Positions 8,411-19,548 of a stretch of 19,548 nt of DNA are shown piece by piece. Position 1 is the first letter of the stretch. Each line of letters begins with the position of its first letter. The DNA is from an uncultured Lachnospiraceae bacterium (lineage in GTDB: Bacteria; Bacillota; Clostridia; Lachnospirales; Lachnospiraceae), in contig CALGGL010000094.1 in assembly GCA_937915975.1 (NCBI GenBank), forward strand, positions 1-19,548, written 5' to 3'. Both the position numbers and the translations under genes were made by a program. The notes beneath the pieces are model-generated. The model did no database searches. It was not told where the DNA came from and was given only the letters and a program-made list of their open reading frames with translations.

Positions 8411-8749
8411 TTATGCACCAAGTCCCTCTACAAATAATACAGGCACAGCAAACATAATTCCTGTGTTAGGCTCATCAAGACCTACAACATCTCTGATTAT
8501 CTTTCTTGCCTTTTCAAGCTCTTCATCGCTCATAACAAAAAGCATAGTCTTAACGGTTTCGTTTTCATCATCATCCGCAAGAATAGCCTTAAGCATACTG
8601 AACATAGGAAGGTCGTCCATCTTCTCGATTATACTTGCCATACCGACGCCATCAAGGATTGTACCGCCGTGTACACCGTTTTCAGCAAGCTCCTTGCAAA
8701 GCTCATTAACCAAATTAGCTTTCTTTAAAATAACAAATAAAAGATTCAT
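8411..8749 (-). CDS. PII-like signalling protein
   Basis: Small cytoplasmic regulator of the PII superfamily, which bind nucleotides as trimers and usually control transporters or enzymes. The 112 residues show the ferredoxin-like pattern: strand LLFVILKKA (3-11), helix NLVNELCKELAENG, strand GGTILDGVGMA (28-38), a T-loop-like stretch (about 39-60, rich in acidic residues), strand VKTMLFVM (66-73), helix DEELEKARKIIRDVVG, and a C-terminal TGIMFAVPV (96-104) like the PII GKIFVLPV strand. The canonical PII T-loop sequence and its uridylylation tyrosine are not seen, so ordinary GlnB function is unlikely. AAGGGGGA precedes the ATG. Its position one base before the antiporter gene suggests it regulates that transporter. 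Confidence 0.75.
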   Translation of the reverse strand: MNLLFVILKKANLVNELCKELAENGVHGGTILDGVGMASIIEKMDDLPMFSMLKAILADDDENETVKTMLFVMSDEELEKARKIIRDVVGLDEPNTGIMFAVPVLFVEGLGA

Positions 8750-9489: not shown

Positions 9490-12400
9490 TTATTCATTAT
9501 CCTTTTTTCTCTTAAGCAGGATGAATATAAATCCTCCTTCCGCAAGTACGGCTGCAACAACTATAGCCCACATCCACCAGTGGCTTGCTGCTTTTTCCAC
9601 AGCATTTGTTACCACTGTGGCAACACTCTCCTCACCGAAGGTGAATGTTATGGTCTGCTCAGCTTCATTTCCCGCTTCATCATAAGCCTTCATATAAAGC
9701 TCATACTCGCCCTTGTCAGTTACATTCAATGTTGCAACATTATTTTTAACGGTTATTTCACTGTCATTCAACTTAACCGTATCAAGCGTATCCTCATCCA
9801 ACTGAAGAGAAACCTCTATGCTGTACGAATCATTTCTAATCTCTCCGTCTTCAACACCTGTTACTATGAAAATCGGCTCCTTAGTATCAAGTATAAAGGT
9901 TACACTCTTCTCGCTTGTATGACCAAGCTCATCCTCAGCAGTTATAAGAAGCGTATATGAACCATCCTCAATATCAGATATTCCGTCGTACTCACTACCG
10001 TTTAAGTACATACGCACATCGCATACCGTAAGATCCGATACAAGCTCGTCAAGATCCAAATCAAGATCTACATCTTCAAATGTCTTGGCATTGAATGTCT
10101 TATTGTCAAACATTGATAAATCGCCTATTACAGGATCAGATGTATCAATCGTAAAATGTACGCTACTGGTTGAGGTATTTCCCGCAATATCAGTTGATGC
10201 TATGGTAATGTCGTAAATTCCTTCTTCCGTAAATGTATCATTTATAGTTGTCGGATTGGCGGTTGAAGCAAATGGTGAAAAGCTTACCGGCGTCTTCTTA
10301 CCTGTTGCATCTGTTCTTGTTCCTGTTGCGGAAACCGTCTTGTTGGCATAGAATTCATCAGATATAGTTGCGGATATACTTACAGCTCCATCTGTTGAAT
10401 CATAATTCTTAACACCTGAAAGTATAATCTCAGGCTTATTTCTGTCAACGGTTATCCTCTGACTGGCAGTTGCAGTATGACCTACTCTGTCCTCTGCATT
10501 GAACTCAAACCTGTAAATACCCGTATCGGACAATAACTCCGAAAGTGAGTATGAACGCTGTGTAGGTGTAATAGTAAGTGTCTTATAAAGTGTTTCATCG
10601 ACACCGTCACCTGCCTTGCGGTAAATCTCTACAGTTCCCTTTGCATCAGCCCAAAATGCCTCGTTGATGTTAAAGCTTATTGAGGCAGCACTTGCAGATG
10701 TGCCTCCGTTTGCACCCGTTATGGTAAGCTGAGGTGCCGTTGTATCAACTCTGAAGCTTATGGTTCTTGTAGGTCCCTGATTGTTTGCCCTATCAATCGC
10801 AAATATATTTACAACATAATCGGCTTCATCAGAGAATGTAAATGTCCTCTCACTTGTCGGAACGAATTCCGAGGTTGTGGTTGCCTGATCAGGTACGGTC
10901 TTTATAATCTGAACTCTTAAGTCTCCTGCATCTACATTAGTATCTGTTATAGAAGCGGTAAGTGTTAAAGGACCTGTAAGATAGAGTGTTCCTCTGCTCT
11001 CTGTATAAGCCTGGCCTCCGTTTACAAGCAACGAAACCGTAGGTACTGTCTTATCGATTACAAATGAAACCTGCTTTGCCTCTGCAGCAAGGCCTGCCTT
11101 ATCATTACCTGTAATTCTTACATTATGTAAGCCTTCTGCTGAAGCAGTGTAATCAGCGTAGTAAAAATCATTTCCCGTTTTCCACTCTACGCTCACCGCC
11201 GAACCGTTATCGGTAATTGACATAGCAAGCGGATCAAAGTTTACATCAGTACACGTAAGTCTTACGGTAACATTTGAATTATAATATTCGTTATTTTTTC
11301 CCGAAGCTCCATCTATTATGCTTGCACCTACAACAGGAACGGTATTATCTACAACAAATGTTGTGGTAGCAACATTTGAGCCTCTGTCCGACTTATCCTT
11401 TGCGGATATGCTTACTGTGTACTTGCCATCCTTAAGTTCTTTACTTCCAAGAACCTGCTGTAAGGTGTGGCTTATGCCTTCTTCGGTTGCATCCTTCTCA
11501 ACCGAAACCGGATATACTGCATACGCTTTATCATTATATTTAACGGTCACCGCATAATCCTTAACAGTAAGGTTATCGGTTATAGTTGATGTAAGCTGTG
11601 GTGTACCTGCTATAACTGTTGCTCCTGATACAGCTTCACCATTTACCTTAATATCTGCTACAGTAGGATTAGTTTTGTCGACTTTAACATATATCTGATT
11701 TGTTGAAGTATCTATGGTATTATCAGCTTTATCTTTTGCATCAAATACAATCTTTGTTCCTACAAGTGATGTAGATTCAGGAACATTTATAGATTGACCA
11801 TCCTTGCTATGTGTTCCATCTATCTCAATTGCGGTTGCTGCACCACCATCTATAGTATAACTTGCATTTTCAAGTGCAGACTCTACAGCACTTTTGCCGG
11901 AAACAAGTGAGTAATTAAGCGGATATTCCTGATACCATGTATTGGAATTTAATACACCGTTATTTTCAACTACCGGCTGAGTATTGTCATAAAGTAAATC
12001 TCCAAGAGCTATACTTTTAGTCCTTCCATTTGAATCTTCAATTTTAATACTCATAACACTTAACAATTGGTTTTCTGTGCCTATAGGAAGAACAAATGAG
12101 AGTTCCCCTGTTGTATATAAGCCCGTTACATCATTATTCGAATTCCCAACATCAGTGCCGCTGTATGAATAATATATATCAGTACCTTTATATAATGTAA
12201 CATTACTTATATCGTAACCTGATGTTGCCTGTAAAGAAAATGTATAAATTCCTTTATAATTTTTATTTTCAAAATAATTTGATATATCATCTCCTGCCTC
12301 TATATCTGCAGCAATTGATGTACCATTATATTTTATTGATTTAAGATTTGCAATTATAGCAGAATCAATTTCTTTAATAGGTGTAAGTGCCTGCGATACT

Positions 12401-14214
12401 GAATTACCCGCCTTATCTTCGACGACAGCAGTAAGGGAAATCATTGAAGCTGTATTAATTGAATCAAACGGAACAGTATATACATAAAATCCTTCTCCAT
12501 CAGCCTCATTAAATGTAAAGCTTTGCTTTTCACCATTTTCATCATTAATCTTTAATGTCGAGAAATTAGTATCTGCTGCTTTGATTTTAAATCTTAAACC
12601 GTCAAATAAAACCTTATTAACTAAATAATTACCATTAGTTAGGTCTGCTTCAGTAACAGTCTGCCAAACATCTGCTCCAGCTCCAACTGCATGTCTTTGG
12701 AGAATTACTTCATTTAACACAGGATCAATTGTGTCTAATGTAAATGTATTGGTGGTATATATTGTTACAGCATTATTTCCAGCCGCATCATAAGGAAATA
12801 CATTCAAAGTATATGTTCCATCATAGGTATGACCTGATAATGCTCCACCTGCTCCTCCAGGATTTAATACATCGCTCAAATTAAACGAATAATTACATGT
12901 TCCAATTTCTACAGTTGCAATAGGAATATCAACCGCTGTTATATCTGTACTATCCTTTGTTCCGGTTACATGAAGTTTCGCAACACCTGATGTTGTATCA
13001 AATGCTACACCGCTTAATCCAACATCAGCGCTATTATTAAGTTTAACAAAGCCTCCATCGGTTCTTCCTTCAACAGCCAAAGAAGAAATAGATGGACTTT
13101 CTGTATCTACGTTAAATGTAAATGTTCCATCAGTTGAGTCATTGGTATTTTCTGCCGCATCTGTAGCAGTTACTACTATAACATTTGCTCCGTTTGAAAC
13201 ATTTGAAAGTGTATATGTACCATTATTATTATCAGTCAAAGAAGCAGCAGTTCCACCAACAGTAGCAGTAACACTTAATATAGGCGTCTCATCAGTGGTT
13301 CCACCTGATGTTACTGTAAATACTATGCTATCAGTTGTATACCATTTATCTGAATTTAAATCTTCTGTTCCAACCTTTGCAGTTATTATCGGTTTCGTTT
13401 GATCATATATGAGAGTCGAAAATTCTACATCTAATATTGGATTTGTATCAGAAATAGATGTTACCGCACTAATAACTTTATCTGTATAAGTTACGTTTTC
13501 ATCTCCTGAAAACGTATAAGTGTATCTATATGTTGTAAGACCGGACTGATTATTTGAAACAACAGCTATATTATTGTTTGTTGTCGGATCAAAATCCGTA
13601 ACAGATTGATCTAATATATTTAAGCCTGTTAATGTTCCTGTTGTCTGTACTTCAACAGTTAATGTGTCACCACTTTTATAATAACCGACATTAACATTAC
13701 CTGTAATCGGAGTCTCTCCATGCTTTACTGTCATGGTATTAACTGCATCCTGTTTTGTAATTGTAACAGGCACTCCAAGAGTTGCTGCAGTACTAGCATA
13801 AGAATACGTCCAATTAAATGAAACAAAATCATCAAATTCTATATCAATTTTATGTAGCGTTCCTTCCAAACCCGTATAACTTGAAAAATCAAAAGATGTT
13901 ATTTCTGTACCTTCTGACCCCGTTAATTCACTTCCATCCGTTTTATAACGAATCTTTTCAATAGTATTCTCTTTTTGATTAATAAAAATAGCAAACATTC
14001 TTTCGGTCTTACTACCAACCGCACCATCCGTTACTTTATTCCAATTATTACCGTTGTCATCCGAATACGCCAAAAAAGCTTCCGGATTCCCTTCTGCCTT
14101 CGCCACATACTTCTTCTCAAAATGGAAATACATAGTAGTGCCGACCATGACGACGGTAAGCAAAACTGCTATAATCTTGTAAAACAAACTTGTTTTTTTC
14201 CAAATTTCTTTCAT
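9490..14214 (-). CDS. Giant membrane-anchored surface protein with Ig-like repeats
   Basis: Predicted cell-surface protein of 1,574 residues. It starts with a basic stretch and a signal/anchor helix (about 11-31, FYKIIAVLLTVVMVGTTMY). A very long external part holds about eleven Ig-like (bacterial Big-type) modules. They are marked by linker motifs such as VDTESP, LDTIDP, VDKTNP, VDNTVP, IDKTVP, VDTTAP, VDRNKP, IDTSDP and LDTKEP, each followed by a beta-rich segment ending in a YxxxxxAxDxAGN pattern. A C-terminal helix (about 1546-1567) precedes the basic tail KRKKDNE. There is no LPXTG motif, so anchoring is by membrane helix rather than sortase. The ATG at 14214 is chosen because AAAGGAG lies 10 bases upstream and it gives a proper signal sequence; a TTG at 14259 would overlap the previous gene. 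It is the last gene of the kinase/phosphatase/FHA operon. Adhesin, stalk or envelope sensor are all possible. Confidence 0.85.
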   Translation of the reverse strand: MKEIWKKTSLFYKIIAVLLTVVMVGTTMYFHFEKKYVAKAEGNPEAFLAYSDDNGNNWNKVTDGAVGSKTERMFAIFINQKENTIEKIRYKTDGSELTGSEGTEITSFDFSSYTGLEGTLHKIDIEFDDFVSFNWTYSYASTAATLGVPVTITKQDAVNTMTVKHGETPITGNVNVGYYKSGDTLTVEVQTTGTLTGLNILDQSVTDFDPTTNNNIAVVSNNQSGLTTYRYTYTFSGDENVTYTDKVISAVTSISDTNPILDVEFSTLIYDQTKPIITAKVGTEDLNSDKWYTTDSIVFTVTSGGTTDETPILSVTATVGGTAASLTDNNNGTYTLSNVSNGANVIVVTATDAAENTNDSTDGTFTFNVDTESPSISSLAVEGRTDGGFVKLNNSADVGLSGVAFDTTSGVAKLHVTGTKDSTDITAVDIPIATVEIGTCNYSFNLSDVLNPGGAGGALSGHTYDGTYTLNVFPYDAAGNNAVTIYTTNTFTLDTIDPVLNEVILQRHAVGAGADVWQTVTEADLTNGNYLVNKVLFDGLRFKIKAADTNFSTLKINDENGEKQSFTFNEADGEGFYVYTVPFDSINTASMISLTAVVEDKAGNSVSQALTPIKEIDSAIIANLKSIKYNGTSIAADIEAGDDISNYFENKNYKGIYTFSLQATSGYDISNVTLYKGTDIYYSYSGTDVGNSNNDVTGLYTTGELSFVLPIGTENQLLSVMSIKIEDSNGRTKSIALGDLLYDNTQPVVENNGVLNSNTWYQEYPLNYSLVSGKSAVESALENASYTIDGGAATAIEIDGTHSKDGQSINVPESTSLVGTKIVFDAKDKADNTIDTSTNQIYVKVDKTNPTVADIKVNGEAVSGATVIAGTPQLTSTITDNLTVKDYAVTVKYNDKAYAVYPVSVEKDATEEGISHTLQQVLGSKELKDGKYTVSISAKDKSDRGSNVATTTFVVDNTVPVVGASIIDGASGKNNEYYNSNVTVRLTCTDVNFDPLAMSITDNGSAVSVEWKTGNDFYYADYTASAEGLHNVRITGNDKAGLAAEAKQVSFVIDKTVPTVSLLVNGGQAYTESRGTLYLTGPLTLTASITDTNVDAGDLRVQIIKTVPDQATTTSEFVPTSERTFTFSDEADYVVNIFAIDRANNQGPTRTISFRVDTTAPQLTITGANGGTSASAASISFNINEAFWADAKGTVEIYRKAGDGVDETLYKTLTITPTQRSYSLSELLSDTGIYRFEFNAEDRVGHTATASQRITVDRNKPEIILSGVKNYDSTDGAVSISATISDEFYANKTVSATGTRTDATGKKTPVSFSPFASTANPTTINDTFTEEGIYDITIASTDIAGNTSTSSVHFTIDTSDPVIGDLSMFDNKTFNAKTFEDVDLDLDLDELVSDLTVCDVRMYLNGSEYDGISDIEDGSYTLLITAEDELGHTSEKSVTFILDTKEPIFIVTGVEDGEIRNDSYSIEVSLQLDEDTLDTVKLNDSEITVKNNVATLNVTDKGEYELYMKAYDEAGNEAEQTITFTFGEESVATVVTNAVEKAASHWWMWAIVVAAVLAEGGFIFILLKRKKDNE

Positions 14215-14233
14215 CCTTGATTTTCTCCTTTCC

Positions 14234-15121
14234 CTATAAGCTTTCCTCTGTATGAACAATTACTACATCATAGATATATCTCTTATCATCTTTTGTATCC
14301 TTTATATTATCGGCTGAAAGAACTGTAGTTGCTTCTTCGTCCTTTTTGCCTGCTAATACGGTTGTTGCTTCTTCATCATCGGAAACTTTTAAGATGTCTG
14401 TTGCTTCTTCGTCCGTTGTTTCTTTTGCTCTTAGGACATCCGTTTCTTCGTCGTCGCCATCATCAGGTGCCCTTAGGACATCTGTTTCTCCGTCAGGATC
14501 GAAATCATCGTCTGCATCATCACTATCAGGTGTTCTTAGAATATCCGTCTCTCCATCAGGATCAAAGTCATCGTCTGCGCTGTCATCTGCTTTTAAGACA
14601 TCCGTTTCTCCATCAGGATTGAAATCGTCTTCTTGGCTATCAGTCTTGCCCTTCGTGCTGCCAAGGATTGTTGTTTCCTCTTCGCCCTTCGAACCGCCGA
14701 GGATTGTTGTCTCTTCCTCACCCTTTGAACCGCCTATCGAAGCTTTGTAGATGTCATCCTCATCACCGGGTCTTAGGATATCTGTTTCTCTTTCCTCAGG
14801 CATTACACGCGGTGACTTTGCATCGCTTGTGATCTTAACCGTTTCATCCTCATTTGTTGCGGAATCTCTGATTGTAATCTTGCCCGTATCCTGATTATAA
14901 TATTTTTTCTGTTCCTGTTTAAGAATCTTGCTGCTGTCACTCTTTTCGGTTCCGCCCTTTTTCTTTTGCTTTTCGGCAATCTCCTTACGGGCATTTCTAC
15001 CTGTTAAGTCGCCTATTACCTTAGGTATCTTAAATACAGCAAACAATACTACACTGACTATCAGTAAGATTATGGCGAGTGTAAGTCCGCCATAAAAGCA
15101 AATATTGTAAATGTCTTTCAT
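14234..15121 (-). CDS. Single-pass membrane protein with ten-fold threonine motif array
   Basis: No family recognised. The 295 residues begin with one membrane helix (about 8-30) followed by a basic segment (GRNARKEIAEKQKKK), which predicts that the long C-terminal part is in the cytoplasm. From about residue 110 the chain is highly acidic and repeats [E/A]-T-[D/T]-[I/V]-L ten times, with first threonines at 113, 138, 150, 173, 192, 213, 227, 241, 253 and 265 (for example ETDILR, ETTILG, ATTVLA). FHA domains bind phosphothreonine with preference at the +3 residue, here always Leu, and acidic TT-type sites are known kinase targets in actinobacterial FHA proteins. A short non-repeat tail (RYIYDVVIVHTEE) follows. 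The upstream kinase stop is 5 bases before this ATG, which has GGAGAG nearby; a GTG at 15130 is an alternative. It is probably a phosphorylatable docking scaffold (inference). Confidence 0.8.
   Translation of the reverse strand: MKDIYNICFYGGLTLAIILLIVSVVLFAVFKIPKVIGDLTGRNARKEIAEKQKKKGGTEKSDSSKILKQEQKKYYNQDTGKITIRDSATNEDETVKITSDAKSPRVMPEERETDILRPGDEDDIYKASIGGSKGEEETTILGGSKGEEETTILGSTKGKTDSQEDDFNPDGETDVLKADDSADDDFDPDGETDILRTPDSDDADDDFDPDGETDVLRAPDDGDDEETDVLRAKETTDEEATDILKVSDDEEATTVLAGKKDEEATTVLSADNIKDTKDDKRYIYDVVIVHTEESL
14471..14632 (-). repeat. Three DDFDPDGETD(V/I)L repeats in the scaffold gene
   Basis: Three 14-residue units (EDDFNPDGETDVLK, DDDFDPDGETDILR, DDDFDPDGETDVLR) start 19 and 21 codons apart. 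The DNA copies are near-identical, suggesting recent in-frame duplication. Each unit also reads as D-x-[D/N]-x-D-G, the core of several calcium-binding loops. Confidence 0.8.
14663..14734 (-). repeat. Direct tandem duplication of 36 bases in the scaffold gene
   Basis: Two adjacent 12-residue units, GGSKGEEETTIL repeated back to back, followed by the start of a third (GSTKG). Each unit contributes one ETTIL motif to the threonine array. The DNA copies have diverged at several wobble positions while the protein is unchanged. Confidence 0.8.
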
Positions 15122-15126
15122 AGCTA

Positions 15127-17319
15127 TCACTCTCCTATCTTTTCATTTTCAGTTGTCTCGGTTTCATCTCCGGCAGCTTCTTCATTTTCTTCCGTGGTTT
15201 CATCCTCCTGCTTTTTCATAGTTCCGTTGGCAAGGGATGAAACTGTATCCTTACGCTTTTTCCACGTCTTGTTACTGTCTATGGACGGCACCTTCGAGCC
15301 CTCCTCATATATGCTTATCAAATCCGCAAGCTTATCCGGACATTGATCTGACCAATATGCAGGATCACGATTGACAGCTTCACATACCGTGTAGATATAA
15401 TCAAGGTGCTCTGCATATACCTTGTTGCTCAGCACATTTTCTGTTCCGAGCACTGACTCAAGCTCCTTTAATACGGATAACGCATTATCATATTCGCCCA
15501 TCTGCTCATAGCAGTAAGCCTTTTTCATCATCTTGTTGTAATAGCTTGTATTGAAAATGTTATCATTATCACCACCATATCCTATCTCGCCGTTTTCTTC
15601 GACCTTTATATCAAGTATGGTAAGATAATCATCACAGTACGCTATAACCTCATCATAATATGTATATGCTTCAGACTCGTTTTCGCTTGTCTTGGCAAGC
15701 TGTTCGTAGATAACCGACAGATTATCATAATATGCATAATAATAATCGTTGGTGTTAAGCTTGGTGCCTGTATATTCATCCAAGTCCTCAACAGCCTGTG
15801 TCATTATCTCCTCTGCCTGCTTTGCAACACCTTCTGTATTGATGTATGTTGCATATATCTGTCCGATTGTTTTATAATTTATAAATTTGTTTTCATTCTG
15901 GTTTGTGTATTCGCGCTGATTGTACGCTGCAAAATCATTTATCTCTCCCAAAAGCTCATCTATATTAACAGATGTACTTGACAGAATAAGTGATACCGAA
16001 CCGTAATAATCAGCAAGCTCACCGAAGTTTTTATCCTTCTTATCCACCATATTGAAATACTTCGTAGCAGTCTTATAATCTCCCAGCTCATCAAAGTATG
16101 TAATAGCCATCTTATATAAGACCTCGTCGTTTTTATCGACATTTGCATAGCCTGACTTAATACGGTTAGCTACAACATTAAGTCCTGTCTGCAAATCAAG
16201 AGGTGTTGTTCCGTCCTCATTTATCTCATGAGATGCATCTATATATGTCTGAATAAATTTATCGTACGCCTCCGCATCGGTTCCGTCCAGCTCAAACGCT
16301 TTCTTGTACTCCTCTACTGCCTTTGCATAGTCCTCTTCAACCTTATACTCATTACCCGCCTCGATATAGGCATTGTAATTATCCATCTTTATCTTTTTTA
16401 ATCCCGTATAACCGATTATCGCTACTATCGCAGCAACAACCGTAAGCACCGATGTGGTTATAAATATTCCGAGCTTTCTTTTATTTTTCTTTCTGTGCGA
16501 ATCATCCAGCTCCGTATAATGCTCAAGGTCATATATAAGCTCCGAACAATTCTGATATCTTTTAGCCGGATCATCCTCAGTACACTTAAGAAGAATTTTT
16601 TCAAGTCCCGATGAAAGTGCCGGATTCATCTCTCTTATCGGATGAACACCGTAAGGAGGATCACAAGGATTATTTCCCGTAACCATATGATACATGGTTG
16701 CTCCCAAATTATATATATCGGTTCTTGCATCAGTATTATATATACCTCGTCCCTGTTTATCACCAAACTGCTCGGGTGCAGCATATCCTCTGGTACCGAG
16801 AGCTGTTGTATCCGCATTATTTTCTACATCATATTCCTTTGCGGTACCGAAATCTATAAGCTTAACTCCGCCCTCCGGCTTTATCATAACGTTGGACGGC
16901 TTCATATCTCTGTATATTACAGGAGGGTTCATATTGTGAAGATAATCCAACGCTCCCGCAAGCTGTATGCCCCACTCAACAACAAGTTCCTGAGATTGTG
17001 CACCTTCTTTTTTAAGTCTGTCGCTTATGGTTTCACCCTCGATAAAGTCCATAACAACATATATAGTATTATCCTGATTTATGATATCTACTATTCTCGG
17101 TAAAACAGGATGGTCAACATTCTTTAAAATGTTTGCCTCTCGCTCAAGGCCTTTAAGCAATGTCTTTGCAGACTTTGAGCCGTCATTTTTTATTTCCTTG
17201 ACAGCCCACTGCTTGTTGAGTCGGTTATCTCTCGCAAGGTAAACAATGGACATACCTCCACGGCCAACCTCTTTCCATATTTCATATTTACCGTCTAAAA
17301 CAGTACCTTCCTTAGTCAT
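15127..17319 (-). CDS. Transmembrane Ser/Thr protein kinase with external TPR-like region
   Basis: Hanks-type kinase of 730 residues. The cytoplasmic catalytic domain (about 10-268) has the glycine loop GRGGMS (19-24), ATP-binding K41, helix-C E61, catalytic YRDMKPSN (136-143, Tyr for the usual His), DFG (156-158), an activation loop with T171, T172 and T176, and APE (181-183). All essential residues are present. A basic patch (KKNKRK) leads into one membrane helix (about 284-306). The external part (about 312-690) contains TPR-like helix pairs, clearest at 313-350, 399-432 and 593-625, then an acidic tail ending in the cytosol-like sequence ETTENEKIGE. PASTA domains, usual in Gram-positive envelope kinases, are absent, so muropeptide binding by PASTA is not expected. 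GAAGGA precedes the ATG. It is flanked by its probable phosphatase and probable substrate genes. Confidence 0.93.
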   Translation of the reverse strand: MTKEGTVLDGKYEIWKEVGRGGMSIVYLARDNRLNKQWAVKEIKNDGSKSAKTLLKGLEREANILKNVDHPVLPRIVDIINQDNTIYVVMDFIEGETISDRLKKEGAQSQELVVEWGIQLAGALDYLHNMNPPVIYRDMKPSNVMIKPEGGVKLIDFGTAKEYDVENNADTTALGTRGYAAPEQFGDKQGRGIYNTDARTDIYNLGATMYHMVTGNNPCDPPYGVHPIREMNPALSSGLEKILLKCTEDDPAKRYQNCSELIYDLEHYTELDDSHRKKNKRKLGIFITTSVLTVVAAIVAIIGYTGLKKIKMDNYNAYIEAGNEYKVEEDYAKAVEEYKKAFELDGTDAEAYDKFIQTYIDASHEINEDGTTPLDLQTGLNVVANRIKSGYANVDKNDEVLYKMAITYFDELGDYKTATKYFNMVDKKDKNFGELADYYGSVSLILSSTSVNIDELLGEINDFAAYNQREYTNQNENKFINYKTIGQIYATYINTEGVAKQAEEIMTQAVEDLDEYTGTKLNTNDYYYAYYDNLSVIYEQLAKTSENESEAYTYYDEVIAYCDDYLTILDIKVEENGEIGYGGDNDNIFNTSYYNKMMKKAYCYEQMGEYDNALSVLKELESVLGTENVLSNKVYAEHLDYIYTVCEAVNRDPAYWSDQCPDKLADLISIYEEGSKVPSIDSNKTWKKRKDTVSSLANGTMKKQEDETTEENEEAAGDETETTENEKIGE

Positions 17320-17354
17320 ATTAAATCCTTCCCTACAAATATATCAAAAATATA

Positions 17355-18128
17355 TTATACCGTCTTTATAAGACCGACTGTAATATTATCCGATTCTCTT
17401 CTTTCTTTTACAAGTTCGGTAAGATATATGCATCCGTCCTTCATACTTTCCTCATCAGCTGCATTTTGAGGCCCGATTTTCGAAATGATTTCTTCCTCGG
17501 ATATCTGATGCCTAAAACCGTCCGAGCATATCAAATACACCGTATTAGGCATAATTATCCCTGTTGAAAAATCAGGTTCAACCACCTCGGACGCACCCAC
17601 GCATTGTAGCAAAACACTTCTTCTCGGATCCGTTTTTGACTGTTCTACAGTCATTCTTCCCGCTGCGATTTCCCTTGCTATAAATGTCTGATCATTCGTA
17701 AGCTGATACATATTTTTCCCTGTTATCTGATATATTCTACTATCGCCTACATGTACAATATGATATCTTCCTTTATATAGAAGAATTGCGGAAATTGTTG
17801 TTCCGAGCTGAAGATTATTCTCTTTTCCGTAATTGCCAAGCTTTATATTCTGATTTTGAATTATGGAATTCCATTCATCATTAAGATTGGCAGTGTTATA
17901 CTCGCCGTCTCTAACAGCTTCCATAAATGTGTGGTCAAACCAATTCATAAAAGCAAGTATTACTTCCTTACTTGCAAGCTCACCCTTGGCAAGACCTCCC
18001 ATTCCGTCACACACTATTCCAAATGCTGCCTGTCCGATATTTGTCTCTATTATTTTTATTCCCAGTGAATCCTGATTAGTCTTTTTTGTTAATCCTACAT
18101 CCGTATGATAAGCGGCGATAAAATTCAT
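17355..18128 (-). CDS. PP2C-family protein phosphatase
   Basis: Metal-dependent Ser/Thr phosphatase expected to reverse the action of the neighbouring kinase in the cytoplasm. The 257 residues carry all main PP2C motifs: NQDS (18-21), the metal-binding DGMGG (41-45), GTTISAIL (109-116), HVGDSRIY (126-133), SDGFRHQ (202-208), and ESDNITVGL (245-253, metal ligand D247). There is no membrane helix. The length is typical of the small bacterial PrpC/Stp type. GTGAGG lies 9 bases before the ATG. The kinase gene follows after 35 bases in the same direction, the standard kinase/phosphatase pairing. Confidence 0.93.
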   Translation of the reverse strand: MNFIAAYHTDVGLTKKTNQDSLGIKIIETNIGQAAFGIVCDGMGGLAKGELASKEVILAFMNWFDHTFMEAVRDGEYNTANLNDEWNSIIQNQNIKLGNYGKENNLQLGTTISAILLYKGRYHIVHVGDSRIYQITGKNMYQLTNDQTFIAREIAAGRMTVEQSKTDPRRSVLLQCVGASEVVEPDFSTGIIMPNTVYLICSDGFRHQISEEEIISKIGPQNAADEESMKDGCIYLTELVKERRESDNITVGLIKTV

Positions 18129-18228: not shown

Positions 18229-19473
18229 TTATTCTTTTCTTAAAAGGAAGGTGAATTCTTCATCTCCCATTTTAACTGTTGTCTTGTTTTTAAGAAGAAC
18301 CTCTTTACCCGGTTCAAGCTCCACACCATTAAGATATGTATGATTGGTGGAGTTGTTGTCCTTAATGTAGTTTACTCCATCCTTCTGGACAATTATACAG
18401 TGAACTCTGCTTACAGCGGTATTATCGGTAATTGTATAATCCGCTTTCGATTCGGATTTTCCTATAGAAAACTCCGGCTTGGTTATATTGATTATTTCAC
18501 CTGTTTTTACCCTTACAAGATGAGGAACCGGCTTTGAACCGAGTTGACCTACAAGATCACCCATCATAGGTACAGGTCCGCCTGCCATCGGACTTGGAGT
18601 TTCCGGCTTCGGAACTTCCGGCTGTGGTATTCCCGACTGCGGTGCAGGAGCTCCCGGCTGAAGTGACATAGGTAATACAGGCTGTGGTACAGGGCCTTCT
18701 TCAGGTTTAACCGGAGTCGGTATCTCCTGTGTAGGCAATGTATCTTCTATAACAGGCTTAACCTCAGACATTGGTTTTGCTTCAGGTATCGGCTTAGCTT
18801 CAGGTATGGATGCAAAATCAGGAATCGGCTTAGCCTCCTCTTTTACTTCGTCCTTTACTTCTTCTATATTATCTTCTATTTTTTCTTCAATTTTTTCTTT
18901 TTTTTCATCTGTTTTTGCTTCAATTGACTCTTCCATCTTAGGCACAGGCTGACCCATCATAGGTGGTATTCCCTGTGGACCTTGGTTCTGTGGTGCAGCT
19001 CCCATCATTGGCGGCACTCCTACAGGAGGCATTCCCTGCGGCGGCATCTGTCCCATCATAGGTGGTACTCCTACAGGTCCTTTATTCTGTGGTGCAGCTC
19101 CCATCATTGGTGGCTGTCCCATAGGCGCCATTCCCTGCGGTGGCTGATTCTGTGGTTTAGCTCCCATCATTGGTGGCTGTCCCATAGGCGCCATTCCCTG
19201 CGGTGCCTGATTCTGTGGTTTAGCCCCCATCATTGGTGGCTGTCCCATAGGTGGCATTCCCTGCGGTGCCTGATTCTGTGGTTTAGCCCCCATCATTGGC
19301 GGCTGTCCCATAGGCGGCATTCCCTGTGGTGCCTGATTCTGTGGTGCAGCTCCCATCATTGGCGGCTGTCCCATAGGCGCCATTCCCATTGGAGGCATTC
19401 CCTGTGGCGGCATCTGTCCCATAGGCGCCATTCCCATCGGCATCTGTCCCATAGGCGGCTGCGAATTCTGCAT
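18229..19473 (-). CDS. FHA-domain protein with Met/Pro/Gly/Gln repeat region
   Basis: Phosphothreonine-binding adaptor. The 414 residues from this ATG comprise a low-complexity region (1-175) rich in PPMG, PPMMGA and PQNQ; a charged, possibly coiled segment (about 178-216, Glu/Lys-rich); a proline-rich linker (217-310); and a C-terminal FHA domain (about 319-414). The FHA core residues are intact: GKS (338-340), SRVH with S355, R356 and H358, and NSTNHTYLNG (374-383) where His replaces the usual Gly. No membrane helix is seen, so it should be cytoplasmic. The frame stays open for all 25 codons from this ATG to the window edge, and the nearest GGGAG is 11 bases away, so the real start may be upstream and the gene 5'-truncated. 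It heads the visible phosphatase/kinase/scaffold operon. Confidence 0.88.
   Translation of the reverse strand: MQNSQPPMGQMPMGMAPMGQMPPQGMPPMGMAPMGQPPMMGAAPQNQAPQGMPPMGQPPMMGAKPQNQAPQGMPPMGQPPMMGAKPQNQAPQGMAPMGQPPMMGAKPQNQPPQGMAPMGQPPMMGAAPQNKGPVGVPPMMGQMPPQGMPPVGVPPMMGAAPQNQGPQGIPPMMGQPVPKMEESIEAKTDEKKEKIEEKIEDNIEEVKDEVKEEAKPIPDFASIPEAKPIPEAKPMSEVKPVIEDTLPTQEIPTPVKPEEGPVPQPVLPMSLQPGAPAPQSGIPQPEVPKPETPSPMAGGPVPMMGDLVGQLGSKPVPHLVRVKTGEIINITKPEFSIGKSESKADYTITDNTAVSRVHCIIVQKDGVNYIKDNNSTNHTYLNGVELEPGKEVLLKNKTTVKMGDEEFTFLLRKE
19054..19368 (-). repeat. 63-base tandem repeat, five units, in the FHA gene
   Basis: The landmark GGCTGTCCCAT recurs at exact 63-base steps (from 19112, 19175, 19238, 19301 and 19364). 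Each unit encodes 21 residues beginning QPPMMGA and ending PMG; units start at Q36, Q57, Q78, Q99 and Q120. The first four are nearly identical and the fifth diverges after PQN. This fits unequal exchange or slippage, and unit number may vary among strains. Confidence 0.9.
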
Positions 19474-19548
19474 ATTATTAATTACTCCCAGCTTATTAAC
19501 CTTAATATTCTTATTCTGTCCCGAAGGTCCTCCTGCACTTATACTTGT

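Follow-up and report, generated by a model that had tools for sequence, protein, structure and literature searches.

A TseK-like membrane protein with ten threonine motifs, encoded beside kinase, phosphatase and FHA genes in Lachnospiraceae

The closest described relatives of the protein treated here come from a 2024 survey of type VII secretion (PMC11217815), which describes TseK of the T7SSe as having a single helix and a cytoplasmic stretch that lacks structure. An Ig-like component is described there as well. The three places that name TseK or TsjK in the main text of that survey give no threonine motif, and the main-text passages of openly licensed papers among the matches listed describe neither a T-x-[VI]-L array nor phosphorylation of TseK. 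Other bacterial systems join threonine phosphorylation to FHA domains. FHA domains strictly require phosphothreonine (pThr), and of the two FHA motifs catalogued, one is pTxx[I/L/V] (PMC8786283). In the Actinobacterial proteins GarA and OdhI, a pThr motif (ETTS) in a disordered extension is bound by the protein's own FHA domain (PMC5448819). Rv1747 of Mycobacterium tuberculosis forms condensates and membrane nanoclusters that are tuned by phosphorylation, by PknF and by PstP (PMC9312465). In the threonine phosphorylation pathway of type VI secretion (PpkA/PppA/Fha), Fha phosphorylation and PpkA/Fha condensates recruit parts of the machine (PMC12607579).

The operon and its conservation

The stretch of DNA analysed, called the window, is a 19,548-nucleotide contig region from an uncultured Lachnospiraceae bacterium of gut and rumen. 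Its minus strand encodes, in order, an FHA protein, a PP2C phosphatase, a Ser/Thr kinase of 730 residues, the array protein of 295 residues, and an Ig-like protein of 1,589 residues (Table 1). The array-protein frame has codons from 15121 down to 14237 and its stop at 14234; the kinase stop codon, at 15127-15129, lies just upstream of its start. The kinase consists of a kinase domain, one transmembrane (TM) segment near residue 281, and then a TPR region that would lie outside the cell. A reading made from the sequence alone had placed kinase, PP2C and FHA genes directly upstream of the array gene. They are there as claimed, with the qualifications that the FHA gene is incomplete in the window and that relatives carry a second FHA gene further upstream.

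Table 1. Coordinates of features of the array gene and its neighbours in the window
Feature	Coordinates	Strand	Basis or remark
Array protein (TseK-like, K), 295 aa	14234..15121	-	ATG start; homologues and profile match to TseK-like group
Transmembrane helix, residues about 2-29	15035..15118	-	AlphaFold2 helix 2-29 and hydropathy
Family box IPKVIGDLTGRNAR, just inside membrane	14987..15028	-	common to most clear TseK homologues
Second conserved box EQKKYYNQDTGKITIR (KYYNQDTGKIT box)	14867..14914	-	family alignment
Motif 1, ETDIL, Thr113	14774..14788	-	
Motif 2, ETTIL, Thr138	14699..14713	-	
Motif 3, ETTIL, Thr150	14663..14677	-	
Motif 4, ETDVL, Thr173	14594..14608	-	
Motif 5, ETDIL, Thr192	14537..14551	-	
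Motif 6, ETDVL, Thr213	14474..14488	-	
Motif 7, ETDVL, Thr227	14432..14446	-	
Motif 8, ATDIL, Thr241	14390..14404	-	
Motif 9, ATTVL, Thr253	14354..14368	-	
Motif 10, ATTVL, Thr265	14318..14332	-	
Conserved C-terminal peptide ..YIYDVVIVHTEESL (VVIVHTEESL)	14237..14284	-	family alignment
Membrane Ser/Thr kinase, 730 aa, TseD/TsjD-like	15127..17319	-	Pfam Pkinase and TPR
PP2C/PPM phosphatase, 257 aa, TseF-like	17355..18128	-	DGMGG, GDSR, SDG, DNIT motifs present; Pfam
FHA2 protein, C-terminal part	18229..19548	-	gene runs past window end, last 439 codons present
FHA domain with G-K, S-R-x-H, S-T-N-H-T pocket residues conserved	18265..18468	-	Pfam, alignment, model
Large Ig-like (Big) protein, TseI/TsdI-like	9490..14259	-	N-terminal signal/TM, C-terminal TM; Pfam; likely ATG start 14214

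A scan with the kinase found 35 loci, one of them a Paenibacillus kinase at 32% identity. The other 34 (L031-L064) have PP2C and FHA genes upstream and the array gene directly downstream, and the co-occurrence of the array with the kinase/PP2C/FHA trio thus stands at 34 of 34 array-operon loci. Full-length kinase orthologues retain RDxKPxN and DFG in 34/34 cases, and the catalytic-Lys pattern in 31/34. The Ig-like gene follows the array gene at 27 of the 34 loci. For six of those remaining, the contig ends within about 2 kb; at L055 the Ig-like gene is absent although the sequence continues past the array gene. The nearest genome compared (G001) has 24% of sampled 31-mers in common with the window. 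Within its genus, an orthologous kinase occurs in 34 of 37 genomes, all 34 of which have the array gene. Neither gene was found in G012 or G030, and G017 gave only a partial array match together with a more distant kinase; these assemblies are 64-80% complete.

Longer loci carry the second FHA gene (FHA1) further upstream, and in L032 and L058 its product combines DUF6382 with an FHA domain, DUF6382 being absent from FHA2 of the same loci. A YceG/MltG gene lies immediately upstream of FHA1 in all 16 loci that reach that far (L032, L036, L040, L042, L045, L047, L048, L049, L052-L055, L058, L059, L063 and L064), while MltG is found in no stretch of the cassette survey described below. As a guess from gene order, this constant neighbour hints at wall synthesis as the output of the module.

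Two further genes were observed near the module. A second, divergent PP2C-like gene lies downstream of it in L040 (16162-16947; 22-27% identity to the first PP2C), with equivalents in L041, L043, L045, L047, L048, L051, L052, L055, L056, L062 and L063, the Pfam assignment applying to the L040 copy, and with no copy in the window. At window positions 8411-8749, between HAD and Na+/H+ antiporter genes, lies a gene for a small P-II-like protein with a weak Pfam match; such a gene occurs downstream of the module in many relatives.

The threonine motif array and the FHA domains

AlphaFold2 models the array protein as a membrane helix at residues 2-29, short helices up to residue 74, and no regular structure thereafter. 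The pLDDT is mostly below 50 over residues 84-269, with block means of 40-47 over residues 81-270, and the tail is accordingly predicted to be disordered. Basic residues after the helix, by the positive-inside rule, predict that the C-terminal tail is cytoplasmic. A Pfam match to DUF4834 was rejected as sub-threshold, and the automated name TatA carried by homologues P0055 and P0124 was judged a misannotation.

Ten copies of [E/A]-T-[D/T]-[I/V]-L had been claimed for this tail at 14315-14788, and a residue-by-residue check confirms all ten. The coordinates are right, since the codon of residue 112 starts at 14788 and motif 10 finishes at 14318. The pattern T-x-[VIL]-L, seen 10 times in the 270-residue tail, averages 0.23 occurrences in 20,000 shuffles, which reach a maximum of 3. 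TTSVL-type matches in the kinase were left uncounted because they fall inside its transmembrane segment. The acidic context that had been described holds as well: the array stretch has 37 Asp and 23 Glu in 167 residues, for a net charge of -45. Every site has an aliphatic residue at +3 (10/10), and this residue is invariably Leu, as had been noted, such that Thr with its +3 Leu fits the published FHA ligand pTxx[ILV]. Motif codons vary between copies (ACA, ACG or ACT for Thr; CTA, CTC, CTT or TTA for Leu), and the array is therefore not a homogenised DNA repeat.

A protein search with the array protein returned 343 homologues. Among the matches listed, 120 of 120 contain 6 to 14 copies of T-x-[ILVMF]-L, counted over the whole protein, and the named ones are from Lachnospiraceae, including the gut species Coprococcus eutactus (P0095). 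Fifty non-redundant tails were drawn from 120 plus 64 sequences, a few of them cut by contig ends. These tails contain 460 instances of T-x-[VIL]-L, compared with 14.5 +/- 3.9 after shuffling, and only 5 of S-x-[VIL]-L, fewer than the 9.4 that shuffling gives on average. Counts with Ala, Asp, Glu, Asn or Gln in place of the Thr likewise fall below their shuffle means. An FHA reader would be expected to enforce just this preference for Thr over Ser, because FHA domains need pThr. In the same tails, position -1 is Ala in 40% and Glu in 29%, positions -2 to -4 are mostly acidic, +1 is Asp in 56%, and +2, within the search pattern, is Val in 82%.

The FHA domain in the window is modelled by AlphaFold with a pLDDT of 92.7. 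Its closest fold in the PDB is the FHA domain of DgcB, in a structure that includes a phosphorylated peptide; EmbR and TB39.8 (FhaA) come next. Across 50 FHA domains of array-operon loci, the pocket residues Gly, Ser, Arg, His, Ser, Thr, Asn and Thr are invariant. The residue after the Gly is basic in all 50, Lys in 49 and Arg in 1, and the same position is Lys or Arg in 35/35 survey FHA domains. Textbook FHA domains have Arg at this pocket position. The Lys that replaces it in the array-operon domains is conserved and basic, but it may affect pThr binding and counts against the docking reading. A possible relation between a Ser-to-Gly change in the FHA domain and loss of the motif was dropped as too weak, since Gly occurs in 9 of 35 survey FHA domains, some with the motif and some without.

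Ahead of its FHA domain, FHA2 has a linker rich in Pro, Met, Gln and Gly. A 100-residue stretch with at least 29 Pro occurs in FHA2 of the window and of 12/14 relatives. Taken with the multivalent array, the Pro-rich FHA2 points to clustering or phase separation, although only suggestively.

TseK-like proteins in related cassettes

The sequence-only reading knew of no described family with this architecture. That statement does not survive: the array protein is, by sequence, homologous to TseK of the T7SSe (PMC11217815) and a member of the TseK family, a name that comes from the gene set and from homology and not from comparison with any named TseK sequence. Like TseK and TsjK, it has a single TM segment and, in the AlphaFold2 model, an unstructured cytoplasmic region. 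In the window and in 34/34 array-operon loci, its gene comes directly after the kinase gene in a cassette of FHA protein (J), PP2C (F), kinase (D), K and, commonly, Ig-like protein (I). By hhalign, the array family matches the TseK-like set A3 (the K-like proteins of L113 and relatives, including that of L071) with 99.8% probability and an E-value of 1.8e-28 over about the first 90 residues. BLASTP of the array protein against the 127-residue K protein of L071 gives an E-value of 2e-9 for the pair. The L071 K tail contains three T-x-[VI]-L motifs. The array protein and the TseK-like set have the IP-VIGDLTG box in common and both end in HT[DE]E; several TseK homologues terminate in ..IHTDEVI or ..IHTDEII. 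Locus L071, from genome G040 of another family, encodes, in this order, an ATPase, a small YukD-like protein, two WXG100-like proteins, a 120-residue ORF, J, F, D, K, a small TM protein and an Ig-like protein. Its A, B and H components are assigned by size, by order and by the published description, without Pfam, and its K is identified as TseK from the T7SSe-like gene set.

PP2C homologues with E <= 1e-30 occur in 47 of 294 genomes of the order and in 10 of 398 genomes of the phylum. Forty stretches round PP2C matches, plus three T7SS loci (L066, L071 and L101), make up a survey that yielded 36 pairs of neighbouring F and D genes. In 34 of these the next ORF is K-like, the exceptions being L139 and L149. 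Together with L066, where D stands in the stretch without an adjacent F, this gives 35 positional K proteins of 79-228 residues. For those of L141-L143 (79-80 residues) and a few others, position is the sole ground for calling them K; the next ORF in L149 encodes a SAF-domain protein and is not K, and the K proteins of L118 and L129 were recovered from behind an antisense ORF. The survey shuffle test used 33 non-redundant next-ORF proteins, with L149 included and L118 and L129 missing. A regular expression for the juxtamembrane box was set aside over the survey K proteins as too loose. A separate search with the K protein of L113 gave 459 matches. Among 120 listed, 112 are at least 140 residues long, and these 112 TseK-like proteins, a set not thinned for redundancy, contain 460 Thr motifs against 26 in shuffled sequence, and 3 Ser versions.

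The tail motif T-x-[VIL]-L is present in 31 of the 35 positional K proteins, at 0-9 copies over the set. Homologues that lack the motifs while keeping the operon had been named as refuting the docking proposal. The motif is largely retained in the TseK counterparts, but four K proteins (L116, L124, L129 and L130) do lack it, which goes part of the way towards that refutation, and the array in K is therefore not indispensable to the cassette everywhere. In L116 and L130 two copies occur in the FHA protein instead. The L124 FHA ORF is a 150-residue piece that is also without the motif. In L129, where J, F, D and K are all retained, T-x-[VIL]-L is missing both from K, which has TVEL and TAEL, and from the region just before the FHA domain. 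More widely, in 26 of 34 survey FHA proteins the motif lies no more than 90 residues from the FHA region, with two or more copies in 19 of them, where the count scores L145 as having none and a separate count gives its FHA protein two. In array-operon loci a motif precedes the FHA domain in 0/15 FHA1 and 1/33 FHA2 proteins, as sorted by a short sequence pattern that may misplace a few.

Other observations on these cassettes concern their FHA proteins and surroundings. One or two ETTVL-type motifs sit just before the FHA domain, in GarA-like fashion, in TseJ-like proteins of L071, L113, L114, L116, L119, L125, L127, L130, L140 and others, and in L067 an FHA-like protein (recognised by eye; 17125-18084) beside a T7SS has a lone ETTVL. 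Seven survey cassettes share their stretch with a T7SS-type ATPase (L066, L071, L101, L123, L137, L144 and L147), and eight adjoin Tad-type genes (TadE, Tad, DUF5702, A24 peptidase): L113, L116, L122, L124, L125, L129, L148 and L149. At these eight Tad/Flp-side loci, where a SAF domain is found among the neighbours of the FHA-PP2C cassette, kinase and K are present in six. Near the cassette in L116, at 15731-17170, is a gene for a TadE-like protein with a C-terminal TNT-family toxin domain.

The window operon was considered as a T7SS locus. Counterparts of the kinase, PPM phosphatase, DUF6382-FHA and Ig-like components of T7SSe and T7SSj are all found, DUF6382 lying in FHA1 of relatives and the window holding part of FHA2 only. 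By Pfam, no FtsK-like TsxC ATPase is among the 14 window proteins, and the T7SS parts of L066 and L071, ATPase and WXG100 included, have no BLAST match among the ORFs of the window or of L001-L065. Eleven genomes of the genus were searched for an EssC-type frame of about 1,500 residues, and none was found in the six array-bearing genomes G001, G007, G014, G022, G029 and G036; the FtsK/SpoIIIE domain search gave in these six an FtsK-sized match and otherwise weak matches in frames of at most 1,079 residues. WXG100 was searched in eight genomes, with no match in the same six and matches in G024 and G002. One of the six, G007, is a single contig and 99% complete. G024 has the array operon and, separately, a T7SS with its own TseK beside it. 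Identification of the window operon as a T7SS locus was rejected on the lack of EssC-type ATPase and WXG100 in the six relatives and of BLAST matches in the window. We infer that the array operon is a free-standing module without a T7SS, where for the genome of the window itself this is extrapolated from relatives. The array protein is thus, judged by its sequence, an expanded and free-standing variant of the TseK kind.

A candidate phosphothreonine docking platform

The tail is probably a multivalent pThr platform at the membrane, written by the kinase, erased by PP2C and read by FHA domains. One transmembrane helix would anchor the long, disordered, acidic cytoplasmic tail with its ten T-x-[I/V]-L sites. 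The membrane kinase of the operon would phosphorylate the tail threonines and PP2C would strip the phosphates from them, while the FHA domains of FHA1 (with DUF6382) and FHA2 (with its Pro-rich linker) would bind pThr sites via a pocket for the +3 Leu. A single tail could in this way collect several FHA proteins at the membrane, close to the kinase and the large Ig-like surface protein. A docking platform, possibly graded by the number of occupied sites, had been proposed from the sequence alone, and the platform remains the best-supported reading, given the selectivity for Thr over Ser, the fixed +3 Leu, the predicted disorder, the FHA pocket and the operon. Those features, with the array itself, its conservation and its family, are computed; phosphorylation, FHA binding, multivalent clustering and any envelope output are inferred. 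Because the motif that matches the FHA consensus is short, a reader other than FHA is possible. A steric argument from spacing was not kept in general form. Successive sites in array-operon tails lie 9 or more residues apart, but 24 of 63 site gaps in the K proteins of the survey measure 6-8 residues. Space for an FHA domain at each site can therefore not be assumed throughout, and neighbouring sites in those proteins may not be occupiable simultaneously.

Those short gaps, which are frequent in the survey tails, would suit a tail acting as a substrate sink or timer, in which the kinase fills many sites so as to compete with other substrates or to set a threshold, FHA binding being secondary. 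So would the multitude of equivalent sites, encoded next to kinase and phosphatase genes, and the copy number that varies from 8 to 12 among close relatives (P0001-P0005). A pure kinase sink, however, should tolerate Ser, which at this site is rarer than chance; the +3 Leu that FHA domains select is fixed, and TseK homologues with fewer copies keep the same motif. We regard a sink or timer as unlikely. The strongly kept aliphatic pair at +2 and +3, together with the L129 K protein, which keeps T-x-x-L without an aliphatic +2, would agree with a docking peptide that binds DUF6382, the kinase or another partner independently of phosphorylation, its Thr retained for packing. Against such a peptide stand the 460:5 ratio of Thr to Ser, the depletion of all five other residues tried at the Thr position, and the kinase, PP2C and FHA genes that adjoin in every one of the 34 loci; it is distinctly unlikely.

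Homology to TseK and the matching gene set would be expected if the array protein were an orthodox T7SSe part whose tail serves the T7SS ATPase, for which FHA domains are reported to keep a pThr site, and not a separate module. This is very improbable in view of the six array-bearing relatives without EssC-type frame or WXG100, the single-contig G007 among them, the lack of BLAST matches to the L066 and L071 parts, and the two coexisting systems of G024, with a separate TseK beside the T7SS. It is scarcely credible that the array is a low-complexity acidic repeat of no specific function: copies do expand and contract, but synonymous codons vary while Thr and Leu stay fixed, and the motif is kept across families with unlike flanks.

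Set beside the described systems, the pThr platform proposed here shares features with each. The array protein resembles TseK and TsjK in its topology and in the place of its gene next to the kinase within an FHA-PPM-kinase-K-Ig set (PMC11217815), but with 10 copies in 295 residues it exceeds every K protein of the survey, and no T7SS ATPase or WXG100 gene is recognised near its gene. GarA and OdhI likewise carry a pThr motif in a disordered extension, an arrangement echoed by the FHA proteins of related cassettes with ETTVL-type motifs just before the FHA domain; in the array operon, by contrast, the sites are in a separate membrane-anchored protein, tenfold, and the FHA proteins are almost without the motif. 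The Rv1747/PknF/PstP system has FHA domains, a disordered region, a kinase and a phosphatase in common with the array operon, but Rv1747 is an ABC transporter carrying its own FHA domains, and we know of no tandem T-x-[VI]-L array there. The type VI pathway also pairs a membrane kinase with an FHA scaffold; to our knowledge it serves an unrelated machine and has no TseK-like tail.

A broader and more tentative proposal, which we think possible though less than an even prospect, is that FHA-PP2C-kinase-TseK-Ig is a portable pThr signalling cassette taken up by different envelope machines: T7SS, Tad pili and, in the window, a free-standing form tied to MltG. In the group of the window, the ligand sites might have moved out of the FHA protein and into TseK, where they increased to about ten, giving a high-valence membrane platform that condenses Pro-rich FHA proteins when the kinase is on.

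The family was already known; what this analysis would add is a proposed function for TseK and its expanded, free-standing form. Within recently described secretion systems, a component with no assigned role thereby receives a predicted job, with residues named. The proposal also suggests that several envelope machines in Bacillota are served by a single kinase/phosphatase/FHA module whose tail has many sites, and the natural series of 0 to 15 sites would let valence in bacterial pThr signalling be probed directly.
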